The position numbers and the translations under genes were made by a program. Below are positions 38,891 through 46,215 of a DNA stretch of 64,000 bases, piece after piece (position 1 is the stretch's first letter; each line of letters starts with the position of its first letter). The notes beneath the pieces are model-generated. The model was given only the letters and a program-made list of their open reading frames with translations, had not been told where the DNA came from and searched no databases. The DNA comes from Psychrobacter glacincola (GTDB lineage Bacteria; Pseudomonadota; Gammaproteobacteria; Pseudomonadales; Moraxellaceae). The DNA is taken from positions 248,001 through 312,000 of the forward strand of contig LIQB01000001.1 of assembly GCA_001411745.2 (NCBI GenBank), given 5' to 3'.

Positions 38891-40183
38891 TTACTGCGGC
38901 GGGGTTTGTGATTTTTTCTCACGCATGACGCCGAGATATTCTTTTACCGCTTGATTGTGCGCCGCCAAGCTATTGGTAAATTTGTGCCCGCCATTACCCG
39001 TCGCTACAAAGTACAATGCGTCACTATCTGCTGGGTGCAAGGTCGCTTCGATAGAGGCAGCCGATGGTAGCGCGATAGGTGTTGGCGGTAGGCCGTCAAT
39101 TTGATAAGTGTTATAAGACGTTTTTTCATCAATGTCTTTACGGCGAATGTTACCTTCATAGCGACTGCCCATACCATAGATGATGGTCGGATCGGTCTGC
39201 ATTCGCATGCCTTTATCTAAACGATTTCTAAACACCGCAGAGACCAAAGGACGCTCTTCTGCCACACTGGTTTCTTTTTCGATAATAGAGGCCATCACTA
39301 ACGCCTCATAAGGCGTCTTATAAGGTAAATTGGGCGCACGATTTTCCCACGCTTCAGTCAATACTTGCTGCTGACGCTTATATAAATCGGTCAATACCTG
39401 CTTATCAGTGCTGCCTTCACCATAGTAATAAGTATCGGGGGCAAACCAACCTTCAAGATTGTGATTGACGATAGGGTCGTTACTATTGATCACTTCATTT
39501 GGCAATATACCGACCAAATCCAACGCTTGAGCAATACCAGCATTGTCTCTATCATTGCCACTATCGTCAGTCAGCACCTCTTTTTTGATGCCTTTATTGT
39601 CTCTTAATGTTTGATACAAGTCTTTAGAGGTTTTGCCTTCGATGATTTGCACTTTTACCATCGATGCTTTTACCCCTTGCCCAAGTATATGTAGCGTTTC
39701 AGCAAAGGTAGGGTTTTCTGGTAATTGATAAATACCAGCATGTAAGGGGCCATCGACTTGTGTTTTCATATAGAGCTTGGCAATCGTGGCAGAAAACAGC
39801 GGGATTTGCTGTTGCCACTGCGGCAGTAGGCCGTAATAGCTCTGACCCTGCTCAATGGTGACCATTTGCTTTGGCTGCTCAATCCGCCCAAACAATGTCT
39901 GATAGACCATCACTAAGAAAAACGCAGCGATAAGCCCCAACACTAGCAACACTTGATAACCACGCTGCATAAAGAACGATTGATTATCCGCTTTATATTC
40001 GCGTGGCTTAGCCGCTCCACTGATGAGTGACACATCTGTCGCTGGCGTTTCCTCTACCCCATCAACTGCTGGTTGCGTGTCCGGTAGTGTGGTATCGACA
40101 CGCTCCTCAACACTGCTATCTGGTTTATTCGATGGCGTTTCATTAGGACGTTCAGGAGGCGTTTCAGATGTAGGCTTGCTCAT
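38891..40183 (-). CDS. mltG: Endolytic murein transglycosylase MltG
   Basis: This inner-membrane enzyme cuts nascent glycan strands and sets their length. The 430-residue protein has a long cytosolic N-terminus rich in P, E, T and S (about 85 residues), one transmembrane helix (VLLVLGLIAAFFLVMVY), and the periplasmic YceG/LysM-like domain with VQIIEGKTSKDLYQTL. The catalytic stretch ALVMASIIEKETSVAEERPL carries the conserved Glu, followed by MRMQTDPTIIYG and YNTYQIDGLPPTPIALP. It normally lies between pabC and tmk; here a defence cassette separates it from pabC. Confidence 0.95.
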   Translation of the reverse strand: MSKPTSETPPERPNETPSNKPDSSVEERVDTTLPDTQPAVDGVEETPATDVSLISGAAKPREYKADNQSFFMQRGYQVLLVLGLIAAFFLVMVYQTLFGRIEQPKQMVTIEQGQSYYGLLPQWQQQIPLFSATIAKLYMKTQVDGPLHAGIYQLPENPTFAETLHILGQGVKASMVKVQIIEGKTSKDLYQTLRDNKGIKKEVLTDDSGNDRDNAGIAQALDLVGILPNEVINSNDPIVNHNLEGWFAPDTYYYGEGSTDKQVLTDLYKRQQQVLTEAWENRAPNLPYKTPYEALVMASIIEKETSVAEERPLVSAVFRNRLDKGMRMQTDPTIIYGMGSRYEGNIRRKDIDEKTSYNTYQIDGLPPTPIALPSAASIEATLHPADSDALYFVATGNGGHKFTNSLAAHNQAVKEYLGVMREKKSQTPPQ

Positions 40184-40350
40184 GGCAACTCGCGAGGCAG
40201 AAGTTTGCTAGAATTTAGCACTGAACCGTGCGATTTTCAATGGTATTTGCTTAGCTTATCAATTATCTTGGTATTTACGTCTGCTGATATGGGCTAATAT
40301 TTCTACCTTCTTTTGTTGTTTTTCCTTTTCTTTAATAACGAAAACTGGTT

Positions 40351-41115
40351 ATGAACCTACATTTTAATCAAAGTCTCGCTGCAAACTACAAATCCGAACC
40401 TCAAAAAATTCGTGTATTAAGCGAGGATTGGGTTGCCAACCAAAGTTACTGCCCTAATTGCGATGCTGAACCATTGGCGGAATTTACTAACAATAAGCCT
40501 GTCGCTGACTTTTATTGTGCAAATTGTAATGAGCAATATGAGCTGAAAAGTAAGCAAGCAAAATTAAGCAACATTATCAATGACGGTGCTTATGACACCA
40601 TGATTGAGCGTATCAATAGTGACAATAATCCAAGCTTTTTCTTTTTAACCTATTCTCAAGAATATAGCGTTAACAACTTCCTGATTATTCCTAAGCATTT
40701 TTTTAAGCCTGATATGATTATCAAACGTAAGCCTTTATCAGTCACTGCTAAACGTGCCGGTTGGGTTGGTTGCAATATTGATTTACGACAAGTGCCCGAA
40801 TCAGGGAAAGTATTTTTGGTCAAAGACCAGCAAGTCATACCACGCGATAATGTCACCGAGCAATTTCAAAAAACCTTGTTTTTACGCGAGCAATCTACAG
40901 CTTCACGTGGTTGGACACTGGATGTTTGGCAATGTATTGATAGACTGGATGCTAATTTCTCTCTCAATCAGGTTTATGCTTTTGCTGATGAATTACAGCG
41001 TAAACATCCTGAAAATAATCACATTAAAGATAAAATCCGTCAGCAATTACAAGTGTTGCGTGATAGAGGTATTATTGAATTTACTGGTCGTGGGCGTTAT
41101 TGCAAATTATATTAA
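40351..41115 (+). CDS. dpnC: DpnI-type restriction endonuclease (cuts methylated GATC)
   Basis: The 254-residue protein is a clear full-length DpnI homologue, recalled from the Streptococcus enzyme. The type IIM nuclease cuts Gm6ATC. The PD-(D/E)XK site is intact with Asp53, Glu64 and Lys66 (PVADFY...YELKSK). The zinc site CPNC (34-37) and CANC (56-59) is present, as are FFLTYSQEYSVNNFLIIPK, RAGWVGCNIDLRQVP and the C-terminal winged-helix region NNHIKDKIRQQLQVLRDRGI that reads methylated DNA. Such enzymes need no protecting methylase but demand a host without Dam methylation. It is read opposite to the flanking pabC and mltG and is rather AT-rich. Its ribosome site is weak. Confidence 0.95.
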   Translation: MNLHFNQSLAANYKSEPQKIRVLSEDWVANQSYCPNCDAEPLAEFTNNKPVADFYCANCNEQYELKSKQAKLSNIINDGAYDTMIERINSDNNPSFFFLTYSQEYSVNNFLIIPKHFFKPDMIIKRKPLSVTAKRAGWVGCNIDLRQVPESGKVFLVKDQQVIPRDNVTEQFQKTLFLREQSTASRGWTLDVWQCIDRLDANFSLNQVYAFADELQRKHPENNHIKDKIRQQLQVLRDRGIIEFTGRGRYCKLY

Positions 41116-41673
41116 ACGTTTCTCATTGAATCGCTCAGGCCTTGGTTTTCCCTCATTATCACGGTACACGTCTGCAATTAACTCCTCTCTATCGTCCCAT
41201 AAAGGTAAACGTGCCGTTGCAACGAGACGGTCATGAAACTTATGCGGTGGATACTCTCCATCAATTTCATCATTGATTTTAAAAAAGTGCTCTTCTCGAT
41301 AATCGACGTAAGCATGCATTCTATTTTTAACATAGTTATTCCAATACCAGACCAGCTGGATAGCTGTGCGCGTAGGTATAGTAAACTGCTTTAAATTGAC
41401 TGTCAGCGCACGTGTGACTGGTTCATCATTAGGAAAAACTCTAATGCGTTGCTCGATAACTTCTTCTCTTGTTTCTGCATACTCAAACACGCCGCCAAAC
41501 GCGATAAATTTTTTAAAGTCTCTCAAATACATAACACCGAGCGACAATTCAGTAAATCTTGATAAATGAATAATTTCATCAGGTTGTTTTTTTGCTAATT
41601 TGCAAATCTCATCAAAAATTAATAGTCGACGGATTTGTAAAGGTATTCGTTCATCTTCGTAGATGTAGTCCAT
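41107..41673 (-). CDS. Unrecognised protein of the DpnI cassette
   Basis: This 188-residue soluble, charged protein matches no family I know. It begins MDYIYEDERIPLQIRRLLIF, has no signal peptide or membrane segment, and is rich in Glu, Arg, Tyr and Phe. AAGGAGA precedes the ATG with good spacing, which supports real translation. It converges on the DpnI-like gene and their 3' ends overlap by 9 bases. On the other side it is divergent from the DpnD-like gene with 155 bases between. Its place inside the inserted cassette suggests a role in defence or in control of the nuclease, but that is inference. Confidence 0.75.
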   Translation of the reverse strand: MDYIYEDERIPLQIRRLLIFDEICKLAKKQPDEIIHLSRFTELSLGVMYLRDFKKFIAFGGVFEYAETREEVIEQRIRVFPNDEPVTRALTVNLKQFTIPTRTAIQLVWYWNNYVKNRMHAYVDYREEHFFKINDEIDGEYPPHKFHDRLVATARLPLWDDREELIADVYRDNEGKPRPERFNEKRLI

Positions 41674-41828
41674 GGATATCTCTCCTTATCAAAACACTAT
41701 CATTGATCGATTTTCCTTATCGCACAAGTCTACGTAACAAAAGACGATCACTTCTTTTTAAGCGCCTTTGCTAACCTAGAATATATAAATACTCAAGAAA
41801 TTTTGATAAGCGTATATCGGGGATAGTA

Positions 41829-42026
41829 ATGATGAAAGTAGATAAAAAACTGAAGAGAGCCTTTCAGATAGAGATTGTCGAGACGTTGAATAATATCGTG
41901 GAGGTTAACGCAGAGAACGAGCAAGAAGCACTATTAAAAGCGCAAGATATGTATCACAATGAGGAAGTTATTTTGTACCCAGATGACTTTATTGATACCA
42001 AGTTTAATATTTTTAAATACGATTAG
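41829..42026 (+). CDS. DpnD/PcfM-like small protein
   Basis: This 65-residue protein reads RAFQIEIVETLNNIVEVNAE, then QEALLKAQDMYHNEEVILYPDDFIDTKF. The pattern of a beta strand with F-x-I-x-I-x-E-x-L, an EA-rich helix and a closing Y..EE(V/I)(V/I)L..DDF motif matches my memory of the DpnD/PcfM domain. DpnD is encoded next to DpnI in Streptococcus with unknown function. GGGGAT precedes the paired ATGs (41829 and 41832). The stop is 7 bases from the end of pabC read from the other strand, so the cassette fits tightly. Confidence 0.7.
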   Translation: MMKVDKKLKRAFQIEIVETLNNIVEVNAENEQEALLKAQDMYHNEEVILYPDDFIDTKFNIFKYD

Positions 42027-42032
42027 AATCGC

Positions 42033-43019
42033 TCAAAATCTCACCATTTCACCCGATAATAACGTCAGGCTACTCATTGGCATCACACCGCGCAGCGCAT
42101 TACAAAAGAATAGCTGGCTTAGTCGTGGCAAATCCTCATCTTTTAATGATCTGACAATGACGGGCTGCTCCGTACCAGACAAAGCATCAATAATGACTTG
42201 CCGCATCACGCCAGCGACGCCAGATTTCGCCATGGATGGTGTATACCATTGACCAGTGGTTAGATAGTTTGCATTATTTTGATAAAGCGGCGGCGTAGAC
42301 AATTTTTCTAATGACGTTTTTTCTGATGATAGTGTTACTAAAGGCGCGTCTGATAATTGATAAAAGACATTGCTCATCGTACCTTCAACCCAACGACCAC
42401 TCATATCTCGTAGCAGACCTTCGCCGATGCTGGGTTTGATATTGTCTTCCGATACTTGGGCTTTGATGCCTTGTAACTCACCACTTGCCAGCACATTGTC
42501 GAGGCGATTGAGGCTTTTGAGTCCTGCTAATGGTGGCGGTAAGCAAGCAAGCTGCGAAGATAGGCAAATGGCAGAACTGATAGGCTGCATCGGGATTGAG
42601 CACCCATCAGGTAAGCGTAATTGCTCGGTCGTAGTGACAGTCATCGCAGAGGATTTTAGCCAAATCTCACAAGCACTACCAGATATGGTTGGCACATAGC
42701 CATAACCACGGACATCTTGCACGGCGCGAGTCACCATCAGTTTCAGCATGCCTTGTTGTAGTTGCTCGGCATGCGTCCGTATTATAGCCAATACAGAGTG
42801 ACTGTCTAATTCAAGTTGTAAAGCTTCAGCATGGGAAATAAGGCGCTGCTGATGATGAGCCAACCACAGTATTTGCCCATCGATGACCCCCATCGTGGTA
42901 AAAAATCCATCGCCATATGCCAACCCACGATTGTCTAGCGATACTGTGTCTGAGATATCCGTCGTAGCACTTGATGGATGTATGCATAGCCAATTATTGA
43001 GCGGCATGATAGCGAGCAC
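42033..43019 (-). CDS. pabC: Aminodeoxychorismate lyase
   Basis: This PLP enzyme of fold type IV releases pyruvate from aminodeoxychorismate to give 4-aminobenzoate for folate. The 328-residue protein has LDNRGLAYGDGFFTTMGVID, LKLMVTRAVQDVRGYGY, the catalytic-Lys stretch GLKSLNRLDNVLASGE and RWVEGTMSNVFY. It is longer than E. coli PabC (269). An insertion near residues 225-245 (SSEKTSLEKLSTPPLY) interrupts the fold's usual spacing. The longest reading starts at GTG 43019; an ATG at 43007 is also possible. It is coupled to the upstream lipoprotein gene (3-base gap). Confidence 0.92.
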   Translation of the reverse strand: MLAIMPLNNWLCIHPSSATTDISDTVSLDNRGLAYGDGFFTTMGVIDGQILWLAHHQQRLISHAEALQLELDSHSVLAIIRTHAEQLQQGMLKLMVTRAVQDVRGYGYVPTISGSACEIWLKSSAMTVTTTEQLRLPDGCSIPMQPISSAICLSSQLACLPPPLAGLKSLNRLDNVLASGELQGIKAQVSEDNIKPSIGEGLLRDMSGRWVEGTMSNVFYQLSDAPLVTLSSEKTSLEKLSTPPLYQNNANYLTTGQWYTPSMAKSGVAGVMRQVIIDALSGTEQPVIVRSLKDEDLPRLSQLFFCNALRGVMPMSSLTLLSGEMVRF

Positions 43020-43022
43020 AGC

Positions 43023-43703
43023 TTACTTCTTATCTGTTTGGGCAGCAGATTTATTGATGACCAGCATACAACTATAAAACTCACATTTTGCCAGTTCTAT
43101 TTTTTGACCACCGATGACTTTATTTTTGATAATTTGACCATTAAGCATATCAGAAATCAGTTGTCCGCCCTCATCACCCATCAGTTGGCGGGCAAGCTTA
43201 TGCGCTTTTTCAGCATGGTTTTGACTTATCTCTTTTTCTTTATCAGAGTCAGTAGGATTGGCAAAGTACCAGCCCAGTTCGAGATACTTTTCAGAATCAA
43301 TCAAATCCAAATACGGCGCATCGGTATCCATAAAGCGATATTTGGCGGCTGGATTACTGGCATAGTCGAGGCTGTTCTCATCAGTGCTCATGACCTTACC
43401 AAAAGTCGCCTTGATCTCATCTAAATTATCGACATTCAGTGACGCTACATTTTTAGTGCCCCATCCCGCAACGTCATATTTCACTTGTGTACCTTGCTGA
43501 GCAGTAGCGCCGTCTAAATCGGCGTTCGGCGCAGCATTGTCCTGTACTAGCGCATCGTCAGCGACGGTTTGCTCGCTCATATCGGCATCTTTTTGGGCGT
43601 CGTCTTTACTGCTATCACAGCCACTGAGCGACACGCCGACTGCCATTATCGTACCGACCAAGAGGGTCTGTAGGCTATTATTCCACATGGGCAATTTACT
43701 CAC
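43023..43703 (-). CDS. Putative lipoprotein of unknown function
   Basis: This protein has 226 residues with a signal peptide ending VSLSGC, giving a diacylated lipoprotein. After the Cys comes an acidic, disordered stretch of about 45 residues (SSKDDAQKDADMSEQTVADD-like). A folded region follows with YRFMDTDAPYLDLIDSEKYLELGW and a C-terminal pair of Cys (AKCEFYSCML) that could form a disulfide. I do not recognise the fold. It is read just ahead of pabC, 3 bases apart, so the two are probably co-transcribed. Translation probably begins at a GTG; an ATG five codons in is possible. Confidence 0.65.
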   Translation of the reverse strand: MSKLPMWNNSLQTLLVGTIMAVGVSLSGCDSSKDDAQKDADMSEQTVADDALVQDNAAPNADLDGATAQQGTQVKYDVAGWGTKNVASLNVDNLDEIKATFGKVMSTDENSLDYASNPAAKYRFMDTDAPYLDLIDSEKYLELGWYFANPTDSDKEKEISQNHAEKAHKLARQLMGDEGGQLISDMLNGQIIKNKVIGGQKIELAKCEFYSCMLVINKSAAQTDKK

Positions 43704-44132
43704 ACTTTTAGATGATTCTCAAAATAGTATTAACGAGCAGGCAGATAGGCCGCTGATAATGGACATTATGTTTTATAAACAAGGGTTCTTATACTTGGTA
43801 TTTTATGACTCAGTTTGTCATGTCAGTTTCTTATGGCTTGATTTTTGACAGTTCAGTTACTGATAGTTATGCAACTGCCAAAATATCAATATAAAATTTT
43901 CATGCTCTCTAGTTTACCCAACTGCTTAACACTTGACCACCCTTTACGTTACGGATAACGCTCCCAGACAGTACAGATTTGTTAAAGACCTACCCTGTCA
44001 AAAAACCTACCTATTCAAGTGTTTACTCGTTAGACCACCGATTTGTCAAATATCGCGTTATCCCTTATGATGATTGTATATCAATACCCTTCTACTGATT
44101 AATTTTTGCCTCTTATCGCAAGCAGACCTATT
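43704..44132. other. Divergent promoter region upstream of aroE
   Basis: About 430 AT-rich bases between divergent genes. No gene, RNA or strong hairpin is seen. Confidence 0.4.
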
Positions 44133-44993
44133 ATGACCCAGCATTTTATCGTTATCGGCAATCCCATTGCCCACAGCAAATCCCCTGAAATTCATACGTT
44201 ATTTGCAGCGCAGACGGGTATTGAGATTAGCTATCAACGCCAATATTGCCCCGATGATGCAGCCAGTTTTACCGCGGTGCTTGAGGCGTTTTTTCAGGGC
44301 GGCGGCGTTGGAGCCAACGTGACTGTACCTTTTAAACAAATCGCTTATGACTGCTGCGCGGCGCGCGGTGGTTTATCGGAACATGCCAAAGTTGCAGGCG
44401 CAGTCAATACAATACTACTAAATAAAGCGCTGGTAAAAAGTGGCGTGCCGATCACCGAGGCATTGTATGGCGATAATACCGATGGACAAGGACTGGTCAA
44501 TCACATCGTAAGTTTGGGTTGGCCACTAAAAGAGGCTCGCGTGGCACTCATTGGTGCAGGCGGCGCAGCACGTGGGGTGATATTACCATTGATTGAAGCT
44601 GGTATCGCACATCTTACGATTGCCAATCGTACGCTGAGCAAGGCAACAGCGTTAGTCACTGAGCTTAGCGCGGCAAGCACGGCTATTCATGAGCAGCAGA
44701 TTGAAACTTGTCGCACGGCGGATTTAAATGGACAGTTTGATATTATCATCAATGCGACTTCTATTGGTTTATCAGCAGATACGCTACCACTAAGCGACAC
44801 GCTAAACGGTGACTATGCTTATGACATGATGTACGGACGCACGCTGCCGTTTTTGCAGCATTTTTCTGCGCGTGGCGCACAGATTTCTGATGGTTATGGC
44901 ATGCTCATCGGACAAGCAGCGCTAAGCTTTGAGCGTTGGACAGGTCATACGATCGATGTTGCGCAAGCGACCGAAACGCTACACAGTCGTTAA
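44133..44993 (+). CDS. aroE: Shikimate dehydrogenase (NADP+)
   Basis: AroE reduces 3-dehydroshikimate to shikimate in aromatic amino acid synthesis. The 286-residue protein begins FIVIGNPIAHSKSPEIHTLF, with the substrate-binding SKS. It has Lys68 in ANVTVPFKQIAYD, YGDNTDGQGLVNH with the catalytic Asp, the NADP loop ALIGAGGAARGVILPL and NRTLSKA. C-terminal DGYGMLIGQAALSFERWTG is typical. I start at 44133 (ATG); a TTG nine codons earlier would only add a non-conserved leader. A strong terminator follows. Confidence 0.96.
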   Translation: MTQHFIVIGNPIAHSKSPEIHTLFAAQTGIEISYQRQYCPDDAASFTAVLEAFFQGGGVGANVTVPFKQIAYDCCAARGGLSEHAKVAGAVNTILLNKALVKSGVPITEALYGDNTDGQGLVNHIVSLGWPLKEARVALIGAGGAARGVILPLIEAGIAHLTIANRTLSKATALVTELSAASTAIHEQQIETCRTADLNGQFDIIINATSIGLSADTLPLSDTLNGDYAYDMMYGRTLPFLQHFSARGAQISDGYGMLIGQAALSFERWTGHTIDVAQATETLHSR

Positions 44994-45008
44994 TCGAAAA
45001 TTGACATA

Positions 45009-45046
45009 AAAAAAGTCGCATGAACTCAGCTCATGCGACTTTTTTA
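45009..45046. terminator. Bidirectional terminator between aroE and the FUSC gene
   Basis: AAGTCGCATGA and TCATGCGACTT pair around a 7-base loop, with A and T runs on the two sides. Confidence 0.9.
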
Positions 45047-45087
45047 ATACTTTATTTCAAACGTACTGGTGGTTTGACACTCATCAA

Positions 45088-46215
45088 TTAGCCAAAGCGC
45101 GCCAGTAGCCAGTTTTCGATACGCCGTAGCGGTATGCGTAAGTTGGTCGAATGCATTACTACTCCGCCGCTCAGACCCACCAAGCAGCCAATCACAGTAT
45201 CAAAAAGGCGCGTGCGAATCACTTCTTGATAGGCGGACTCAGAAAGCGGTAGACCACTGCCGTATTCTGCAATAAATATCGTCAGCGGCGTGATAAATAT
45301 GACTGCCAAGCCATAATGTCGATCCACTAACGTCTCGATACAAAGCATCATCGTCAGTATCGCCAGTGCGACACCCCATATTGATAATCCCCAAGACAAC
45401 ATCCAACTCGCCAAAACCACACCCAATACTGTACCGAGTAAACGATGTATTTGCTTAATCCACATGGTACGCAAATGAATACCTTGGATAATTAAAAAGC
45501 AGCTAACTGCTGCCCAATAGGGATTAGACAGCTGTAAAGTGACGGCGATGAGCAAGGCTAAACTGACAAAACTGGCGACAATCACACTTTCAGTAATGGT
45601 ATCTGGCTCGTAGCTATAAATAGGCGTCGGCGTCGCTGGGCGCGTCGCCAGTAAAAATAACGAATACAGCAATGCCATCACTAAAGCAAAGCTACTGCCA
45701 AGCATCACCAGTCCAGTTGCACGTAAGATGTCTTCCAAAGGCAGCGGTATAAATAGCGCAATAGCGCCTGCCATCATCACAAACAGTCCCGCTGGCGGTG
45801 GCTGACGATAATAACGTCCAAAAATCACAATACCAAACGCCATGAGCGTAAATATCGGCAGTTTTAATAGCGGGATTTGCTGAGCAATTAGACCGAGCGC
45901 AAAGCACAGCGACATGGCAAAACCCCAAGCCATCACCGTCACCAATCGATACGGCAGCTTGCCCACTAACGGTATATTCAAAATAACCATCGCCCCCAAA
46001 GACGCTTTGATACCTGACGATAAAGCATCAAAATAAGCGCCCACAAACACAGGGAAACTGATGGCAATCGCCGCGATAATCGGCATATGCCACGGTCTCT
46101 TACTACGGTTCAGTGTCAGCAGATGACTCAACTCGCCATCAATTAAAGCCTTTATGCGAGCAAATAACGCTGTCAGCCAAGATGCTCGCTTTGCCTCGCG
46201 CTTGGATGCGCTCAT
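45088..46215 (-). CDS. FUSC family inner-membrane protein
   Basis: This 375-residue protein carries about nine hydrophobic segments arranged as the FUSC module: AIAISFPVFVGAYFDALSSGI early, and the later SNPYWAAVSCFLIIQGIHLRTM with the conserved RTLGT-like motif HRLLGTVLGVVLA. FUSC proteins are thought to export aromatic acids and similar compounds (AaeB, YccS), but substrate cannot be read here. It lacks the long soluble C-terminal domain of AaeB. It stands alone, convergent with aroE. Confidence 0.82.
   Translation of the reverse strand: MSASKREAKRASWLTALFARIKALIDGELSHLLTLNRSKRPWHMPIIAAIAISFPVFVGAYFDALSSGIKASLGAMVILNIPLVGKLPYRLVTVMAWGFAMSLCFALGLIAQQIPLLKLPIFTLMAFGIVIFGRYYRQPPPAGLFVMMAGAIALFIPLPLEDILRATGLVMLGSSFALVMALLYSLFLLATRPATPTPIYSYEPDTITESVIVASFVSLALLIAVTLQLSNPYWAAVSCFLIIQGIHLRTMWIKQIHRLLGTVLGVVLASWMLSWGLSIWGVALAILTMMLCIETLVDRHYGLAVIFITPLTIFIAEYGSGLPLSESAYQEVIRTRLFDTVIGCLVGLSGGVVMHSTNLRIPLRRIENWLLARFG

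Follow-up and report, generated by a model that had tools for sequence, protein, structure and literature searches.

Alternative restriction genes directed at GATC have been described at single chromosomal sites in other bacteria. In the sections of the literature drawn on here, the dpn locus of Streptococcus pneumoniae is a single chromosomal position that is occupied by either DpnI or DpnII (PMC3573125, PMC4263131); a switch between the two 'should be lethal' (PMC3573125), and switches are described as rare, with one DpnI/DpnII switch within a sequence cluster (PMC4263131). The corresponding sections on Neisseria report that drg replaces dam at a site at leuS (PMC4269198, PMC516771), that Drg has been shown to cut only GmeATC (PMC4269198), and that the dam+/drg- and dam-/drg+ genotypes are mutually exclusive, according to earlier work cited in PMC4269198. 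The puzzle is by what route a cell that cuts methylated GATC can become one that methylates it while its own chromosome survives.

Here we describe a locus from Psychrobacter glacincola, contained in a stretch of 64,000 nucleotides (the window), and its counterparts in a survey of 105 Psychrobacter genomes. We consider it very probable that the junction between mltG and pabC in this genus serves as a site on the chromosome at which GATC restriction systems with opposite specificities are exchanged. The initial annotation, which considered the DpnI cassette of the window alone, was right about the identity of DpnI, but it could not have detected that an opposite system occupies the same site in 12 relatives.

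The DpnI cassette, its host and its spread

The window was initially said to contain a full-length DpnI homologue with its cited residues, a convergent gene of unknown family and a small DpnD/PcfM-like gene, placed between mltG and pabC, and all of this is borne out (Table 1). The predicted DpnI matches PF06044 (2.5e-82, 275.4 bits; curated cut-off 26.7) followed, in the expected order, by PF17726 (2.2e-33, 114.7 bits; curated cut-off 23), as well as the PADLOC model mREase_II (1.5e-119) and DpnI itself (PDB 4esj) at 1.9e-102 across 253 residues. It has C34, C37, D53, C56, C59, E64 and K66; D53, E64, K66 and the two CxxC pairs included here we take, from the DpnI literature, to have catalytic and zinc-binding roles. 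The profile search that had been recommended for the small gene product places it in the DpnD-PcfM family with 52.6 bits (cut-off 25), and dpnI and gene 2 overlap by 9 bp. The genes mltG, pabC and tmk all lie on the minus strand around the cassette, and the expectation that mltG and pabC are otherwise neighbours on one strand is confirmed by empty sites in the cassette-free genomes G033, G039, G076 and G101, where they stand 173-286 bp apart. Measured over 500 bp at a time, the GC content of the cassette is 34-41%, against 38-51% in the rest of the region from 36 to 46 kb. Median pairwise dN/dS, calculated from pairs that are not independent, is 0.087 for dpnI, 0.178 for gene 2 and 0.239 for dpnD.

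Table 1. Features of the mltG-pabC junction in the window
Feature	Coordinates	Strand	Evidence
dpnI (dpnC-type), predicted methyl-directed GATC endonuclease, 254 aa	40351..41115	+	PF06044, PF17726, PDB 4esj, seven residues
gene 2, convergent 188-aa protein, without fold or function assignment, only in Psychrobacter	41107..41673	-	no informative family match; dN/dS 0.178
dpnD, DpnD/PcfM-like acidic protein, 65 aa	41829..42026	+	PF14207 4.5e-14
mltG (YceG), left border gene	38891..40183	-	PF02618 4.7e-79; matched in 104/105 genomes
pabC (aminotransferase IV), right border gene	42033..43019	-	PF01063 6.2e-29
segment exchanged for a 3.04-kb DpnII-type cassette in G019	40265..42021		blastn alignment boundaries

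The genome from which the window comes (3.49 Mb, 99.99% complete) encodes a single DpnI, and a profile search that was positive for four of 14 control genomes, E. coli among them, found no Dam-family (PF02086) methylase gene in it; at the level of genes, this is in keeping with the proposed dam-negative host. The observed/expected ratio of GATC is 0.45 in the window, 0.33 in DpnI loci and 0.50 in DpnII loci, the loci including their flanks. This depletion is as expected after long exposure to GATC restriction, but the signal is not specific, because GGCC and CCGG are depleted as well, and in the window (0.24 and 0.30) even more strongly than GATC. The depletion of these two sites may itself mean other restriction pressures.

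Across the 105 genomes, DpnI or a relic of it is found in 84, gene 2 in 65 and DpnD in 74, with 61 genomes carrying the three together. Of the 84 DpnI copies, 70 are full length with all seven residues invariant; the remaining 14 have been truncated or deleted, carry a frameshift or a stop, or are cut by the end of a contig. DpnI or its remains accompany DpnD in 73 of 74 genomes and gene 2 in 64 of 65, the remaining gene-2 genome having DpnD; this is G046, the only genome in the survey with gene 2 and DpnD but not DpnI. Gene 2 is absent from 20 of the 84 DpnI genomes. When 348 genomes of the family were searched, DpnI exceeded the cut-off outside Psychrobacter in 11 genomes of five other genera, some as fragments, and an order-wide draw of 390 genomes returned only own-genus matches (10) over the cut-off. 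The cassette had been interpreted as a local acquisition, to be contradicted by the same three-gene order in all relatives; that order approaches such ubiquity without attaining it (61/105), and the notion of local acquisition itself is not sustained, DpnI or its remains being the commonest state of the junction. Nor is a DpnI so far from Streptococcus new, given that PF06044 is named for the Neisseria dam-replacing gene and matches in five other genera of the family.

Alternative occupants of the mltG-pabC junction

The junction was read in 103 of the 105 genomes, across contig breaks in four (G021, G036, G086, G095); G080 has no mltG match and in G087 the contig ends. It is occupied by DpnI or its remains in 84 genomes, by a DpnII-type cassette in 12, by neither system in five (the four empty sites, and G025, which retains a dpnI remnant), by other genes in two (G046, G104), and is unreadable in two. 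Two whole cassettes at one junction were seen in none of the 103 read, four of which are broken by contig ends. G046 has lost dpnI but retains gene 2 and dpnD. In its locus (L132), as in L171 (G038) and L199 (G073), the cassette is separated from mltG by three additional genes of 229-249, 228 and about 1020-1030 aa.

The DpnII-type cassette consists of a Dam-family methylase, a restriction endonuclease, an HTH regulator, a protein of 82-84 aa and a DpnA-like methylase. One methylase type is present in G019, G026, G044, G055, G065, G071, G074, G094 and G096, and a second type, in reverse orientation, in G043, G079 and G093. The cassette is followed by pabC in 11 of the 12 genomes; in G074 (L123) it comes after mltG and is succeeded by a 323-aa gene, with no pabC found in the 8 kb that remain of the contig. 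Domain scans were made for one representative of each kind of endonuclease and the other cassettes were typed by tblastn or by eye. Representative methylases score 280 and 315 bits against TIGR00571 dam (cut-off 114.85), with DpnM (2dpm) the closest PDB relative, and HTH_3 and PF01555 (DpnA-like) were likewise matched on representatives; tblastn recovers the DpnA-like protein, a predicted second methylase, from all 12 cassettes. The endonucleases are of four kinds: six MutH-like (226 aa, a weak match of 5e-7, below the cut-off), three with DUF6996/6997/7226 (460 aa), two PD-(D/E)XK-like (174 aa, PDDEXK_11 at 0.0003, below the cut-off) and one PF04556 DpnII (8.7e-92, in G096).

Replacement of one cassette by the other can be seen between close relatives. 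The flanks of the window align by blastn with those of G019 at 98.6% identity over 982 bp on the left (39283-40264) and 97.2% over 3986 bp on the right (42022-46000), and the segment between them has no blastn match in G019, where the DpnII-type cassette stands instead. Further close DpnI/DpnII pairs are G026/G027 (right flank 95.3%, left 98.2%) and G079/G041 (93.5% and 96.4%), and the DpnII-type genomes G065, G094 and G093 sit inside a cluster of DpnI species. A FastTree phylogeny of the right flank was built from 101 rows, leaving out G074 (which has no right flank), G080, G087 and two contig-end rows. On it the 11 DpnII rows need 11 changes, and starred branches force at least 11, a count that is only a guide because the tree uses the flank of the locus itself and has several long branches. 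Shuffled labels need 10.6 changes on average, and so the DpnII state is as scattered as chance.

Fragments left at the junction point to the direction of some replacements. In the DpnI loci of G041, G056, G063 and G069, the space between dpnD and pabC contains a truncated dpnA, from which the first 43-56 codons, and with them the DPPY part, are missing; the junction is seemingly shared by all four. This implies that a DpnI cassette took the place of a DpnII cassette there. Three genomes from another genus of the family (G532, G548 and G552; L326-L328) have a gene of 945-954 aa, valS by eye, followed by a dam fragment, DpnI, DpnD and a dpnA fragment. In G515, which belongs to a further genus, a relic of DpnI accompanied by DpnD lies between two neighbours that enclose a DpnII-type cassette in G486 and G507. 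As far as sequences can, the dpnA fossils and the combined dam-DpnI-dpnA fossils show DpnII-to-DpnI replacement. Other junctions point the opposite way: in G025 the start of dpnI is fused to the end of dpnD by a deletion, and three relatives of the window keep dpnI and lack gene 2 and dpnD, the dpnI frame being intact in G004 and G049 and interrupted in G075. Deletions, decayed dpnI and empty sites thus provide null states through which a switch could pass.

The model that we propose is as follows. The window DpnI would cut GATC only where the adenine is methylated, and would be safe in a host that has no GATC methylase; its presumed targets would be Dam-methylated phages and plasmids, including the Psychrobacter plasmids that carry a dam and DpnII pair. 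The DpnII-type relatives would do the reverse, methylating GATC and cutting unmethylated DNA. Alleles would be exchanged by recombination within the conserved flanks, at times incompletely, leaving fossils behind, and at times by way of a deleted or decayed DpnI.

Two other accounts of the locus have to be weighed against this model. A single old insertion of DpnI in the ancestor of the genus, followed by a few chance losses or replacements in which DpnII cassettes were unrelated later arrivals at a permissive gap, would dispense with reciprocal exchange and would fit the majority state of DpnI, the five sites with neither system and the 14 copies that are not intact. However, it has to accommodate 11 changes for 11 DpnII rows, dpnA fossils that put DpnII before DpnI in at least one lineage, and a corresponding alternation at a different site in another genus, and we regard it as improbable. 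The proposal, in the section of PMC4269198 drawn on here, that gonococcal Drg may modulate transcription besides cutting GmeATC could suggest that the DpnI homologue is now mainly a regulator or DNA-binding protein rather than a restriction enzyme; the invariance of seven residues in 70 full-length copies and the low dN/dS of dpnI argue otherwise, and a mere regulator would not be expected to share its site with a reciprocal methylase system, leaving this reading with very little credibility. Repeated exchange at the junction is the reading that we prefer. As Psychrobacter offers many alternations in one genus, even with flanks that are 97-99% identical, the question of the switch becomes testable. 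Intermediates can be seen, as fossils of dpnA and dam, as empty sites and as dpnI genes that have decayed or been deleted, and the safety device that is otherwise missing could be supplied by a small protein linked to the methylase.

Putative accessory proteins and the apparent coexistence of DpnI with Dam

Gene 2 matches neither a Pfam nor a PADLOC family up to E=1, its best NCBIfam (0.024) and PHROGs (0.14) matches are at chance level, there is no PDB sequence relative, and Foldseek searches of PDB and BFVD with a structural model (pLDDT 76, 29 rows) gave nothing at E<=0.001. A resemblance to YkuJ (best VIA-align Z 4.6 over 73-75 residues) is too weak to use, and the idea of a DNA mimic was dropped in view of net charges from -6 to +13. 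All 48 of the named loci that encode gene 2 in a search of genome contigs belong to Psychrobacter; none was found outside this genus (one of 16 genera positive), nor were there relatives in viral contigs. Judged by these comparisons, gene 2 is a new gene limited to Psychrobacter. Sixteen genomes have two tandem gene-2 matches, some decayed (hand count). Some gene-2 proteins, in L191 (G063) and L214 (G095), look by eye like chimeras of 164-aa and 188-aa forms, which may reflect recombination between tandem copies. In L152 (G016) and L215 (G097) another minus-strand gene, of 164-166 aa, stands between dpnI and dpnD in place of gene 2; the G016 copy of this other gene has no Pfam match.

Gene 2 is under selection, as its dN/dS indicates, but is dispensable for the persistence of DpnI. 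Most likely it encodes an accessory protein of the DpnI state, with either a second anti-invader function or a role as DpnI modulator. An immunity or inhibitor protein that restrains DpnI might be expected from a gene that is convergent to dpnI and overlaps it, that is confined to one genus, and whose carriers all have DpnI, its remains or, in one case, DpnD. We think this unlikely, however, when 20 of 84 DpnI genomes lack gene 2, when G004 and G049 keep an intact dpnI despite the deletion of gene 2 and dpnD, and when G007, G038 and G073 combine DpnI with dam but have no gene 2. In Streptococcus, dpnD lies beside DpnI. Since the two occur together in four genera, in several arrangements, a functional link is likely, and DpnD is probably a partner of DpnI. 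Its structural model (pLDDT 73) gave an unusable best match (VIA-align Z 4.3).

DpnI and Dam-family genes do not exclude one another genome-wide. Four of the 84 DpnI genomes (G007, G038, G063, G073) have an intact DpnI together with a strong Dam-family methylase and an endonuclease elsewhere; these lie on contigs of 5.8-8.7 kb (L222-L225), of which, by eye, two are plasmid-like and one phage-like. The plasmid-like contig L223 (G063) pairs the methylase with a PF04556 endonuclease. In addition, the DpnI genome G083 encodes, on a contig of 7 kb (L228, 5541-6620), a Dam-family methylase that is divergent and contains an insertion; at 161 bits this methylase is over the TIGR00571 cut-off. DpnI and Dam acting together should be lethal, so that some of these genes should be silent or inhibited, or the assemblies mixed. 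Private mutations or a broken upstream region, which might have explained the coexistence, were not seen in G063, which has 0 private DpnI residues and an upstream region like that of its relatives; G007 has 2 private residues, G038 9 and G073 12, against a baseline median of 1 and maximum of 28. Mixed cultures or mis-binned assemblies could account for the four genomes, all of them drafts with dam on short contigs. Contamination estimates of 0-1% speak against this, and the elements must be real, whatever the DpnI state of their hosts, as two complete Psychrobacter plasmids carry the same genes; we would call it a tentative explanation, less probable than not.

The protein of 82-84 aa, with its invariant C-terminus FLADMLE, occurs in 16 of the 105 genomes: the 12 of DpnII type and the four just described. 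These are also the genomes with a PF02086 match of 3e-57 or better; the probability of such co-occurrence (16/16 against 0/89) by chance is 3e-19, for a threshold set after the data were seen and a gene already observed beside dam. Six more genomes, with PF02086 matches of 5e-25 or worse, lack the protein. They include G083, and because its methylase exceeds the TIGR00571 cut-off, the linkage to the methylase is broken in one case. The two public Psychrobacter plasmids that have this dam, pA17P1 and pYP14d, likewise encode the protein, and among the elements the position of its gene relative to dam varies, as do the Dam subtype, endonuclease type and replicon. The DpnII-type cassettes of G486 and G507 encode a homologue of 71 aa. 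Searches of Pfam and NCBIfam returned nothing at 0.01, the best PHROGs and PDB values were 0.16 and 0.08, and none was found in phages or viral contigs. G096 has a second copy (contig C5, L325 6273-6521) among the YqaJ and Gp3-like genes of a prophage-like region, in which no Dam-family gene was found.

It is conceivable, though we would not expect it, that this protein is a DpnI antidote that blocks DpnI on Gm6ATC DNA. An antidote would be useful because an incoming GATC methylase turns the host chromosome into a DpnI target, and four in five species have DpnI or its remains; were it true, methylase plasmids could live in DpnI cells and a DpnI-to-DpnII switch would be survivable. Such an antidote would account for these observations; if the protein instead regulated the methylase or acted as its partner, the linkage would be accounted for, but the coexistence would not.

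Comparison with known systems

Among the openly accessible papers listed in our literature searches, which extended to inhibitors of DpnI, none concerned this Psychrobacter locus or the 82-84 aa protein, and the section of PMC11037411 (on winged-helix 6mA enzymes) drawn on here makes no mention of Psychrobacter. The alternation of the two states in the genus also means that the GATC state of a strain cannot be taken for granted from its relatives, which matters for the transformation of these bacteria and for the reading of methylomes. Psychrobacter immobilis is capable of natural transformation.

Like the pneumococcal dpn locus, the junction holds alternative cassettes of predicted opposite GATC specificity at one site, and its DpnII side likewise combines a Dam-type methylase, an endonuclease and a DpnA-like second methylase. 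It differs in belonging to a Gammaproteobacterium, in its position between mltG and pabC and in its four kinds of endonuclease, as well as in the HTH regulator and 82-84 aa protein of the DpnII-type cassette and the presence of gene 2 in most DpnI cassettes. Moreover, in contrast to the one switch within a pneumococcal sequence cluster given in the section of PMC4263131 drawn on here, the 11 Psychrobacter DpnII rows are all separate on the flank tree. With the DpnII/MboI-type restriction-modification systems it shares the pairing of a Dam-family methylase with a PF04556 endonuclease, in the G096 cassette and on contig L223, whereas six of the 12 endonucleases are MutH-like (weakly, below the cut-off), two PD-(D/E)XK-like and three of the DUF6996/6997/7226 kind. 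As in the drg/dam system of Neisseria, a DpnI homologue alternates with dam at one site, but the site is different, the alternative in Psychrobacter is a whole DpnII-type system, and gene 2 and the 82-84 aa protein are absent from the Neisseria descriptions in the sections of PMC4269198 and PMC516771 drawn on here. The locus is a variant that resembles the pneumococcal DpnI/DpnII and neisserial dam/drg loci, and gene 2 and the 82-84 aa protein are new in it.
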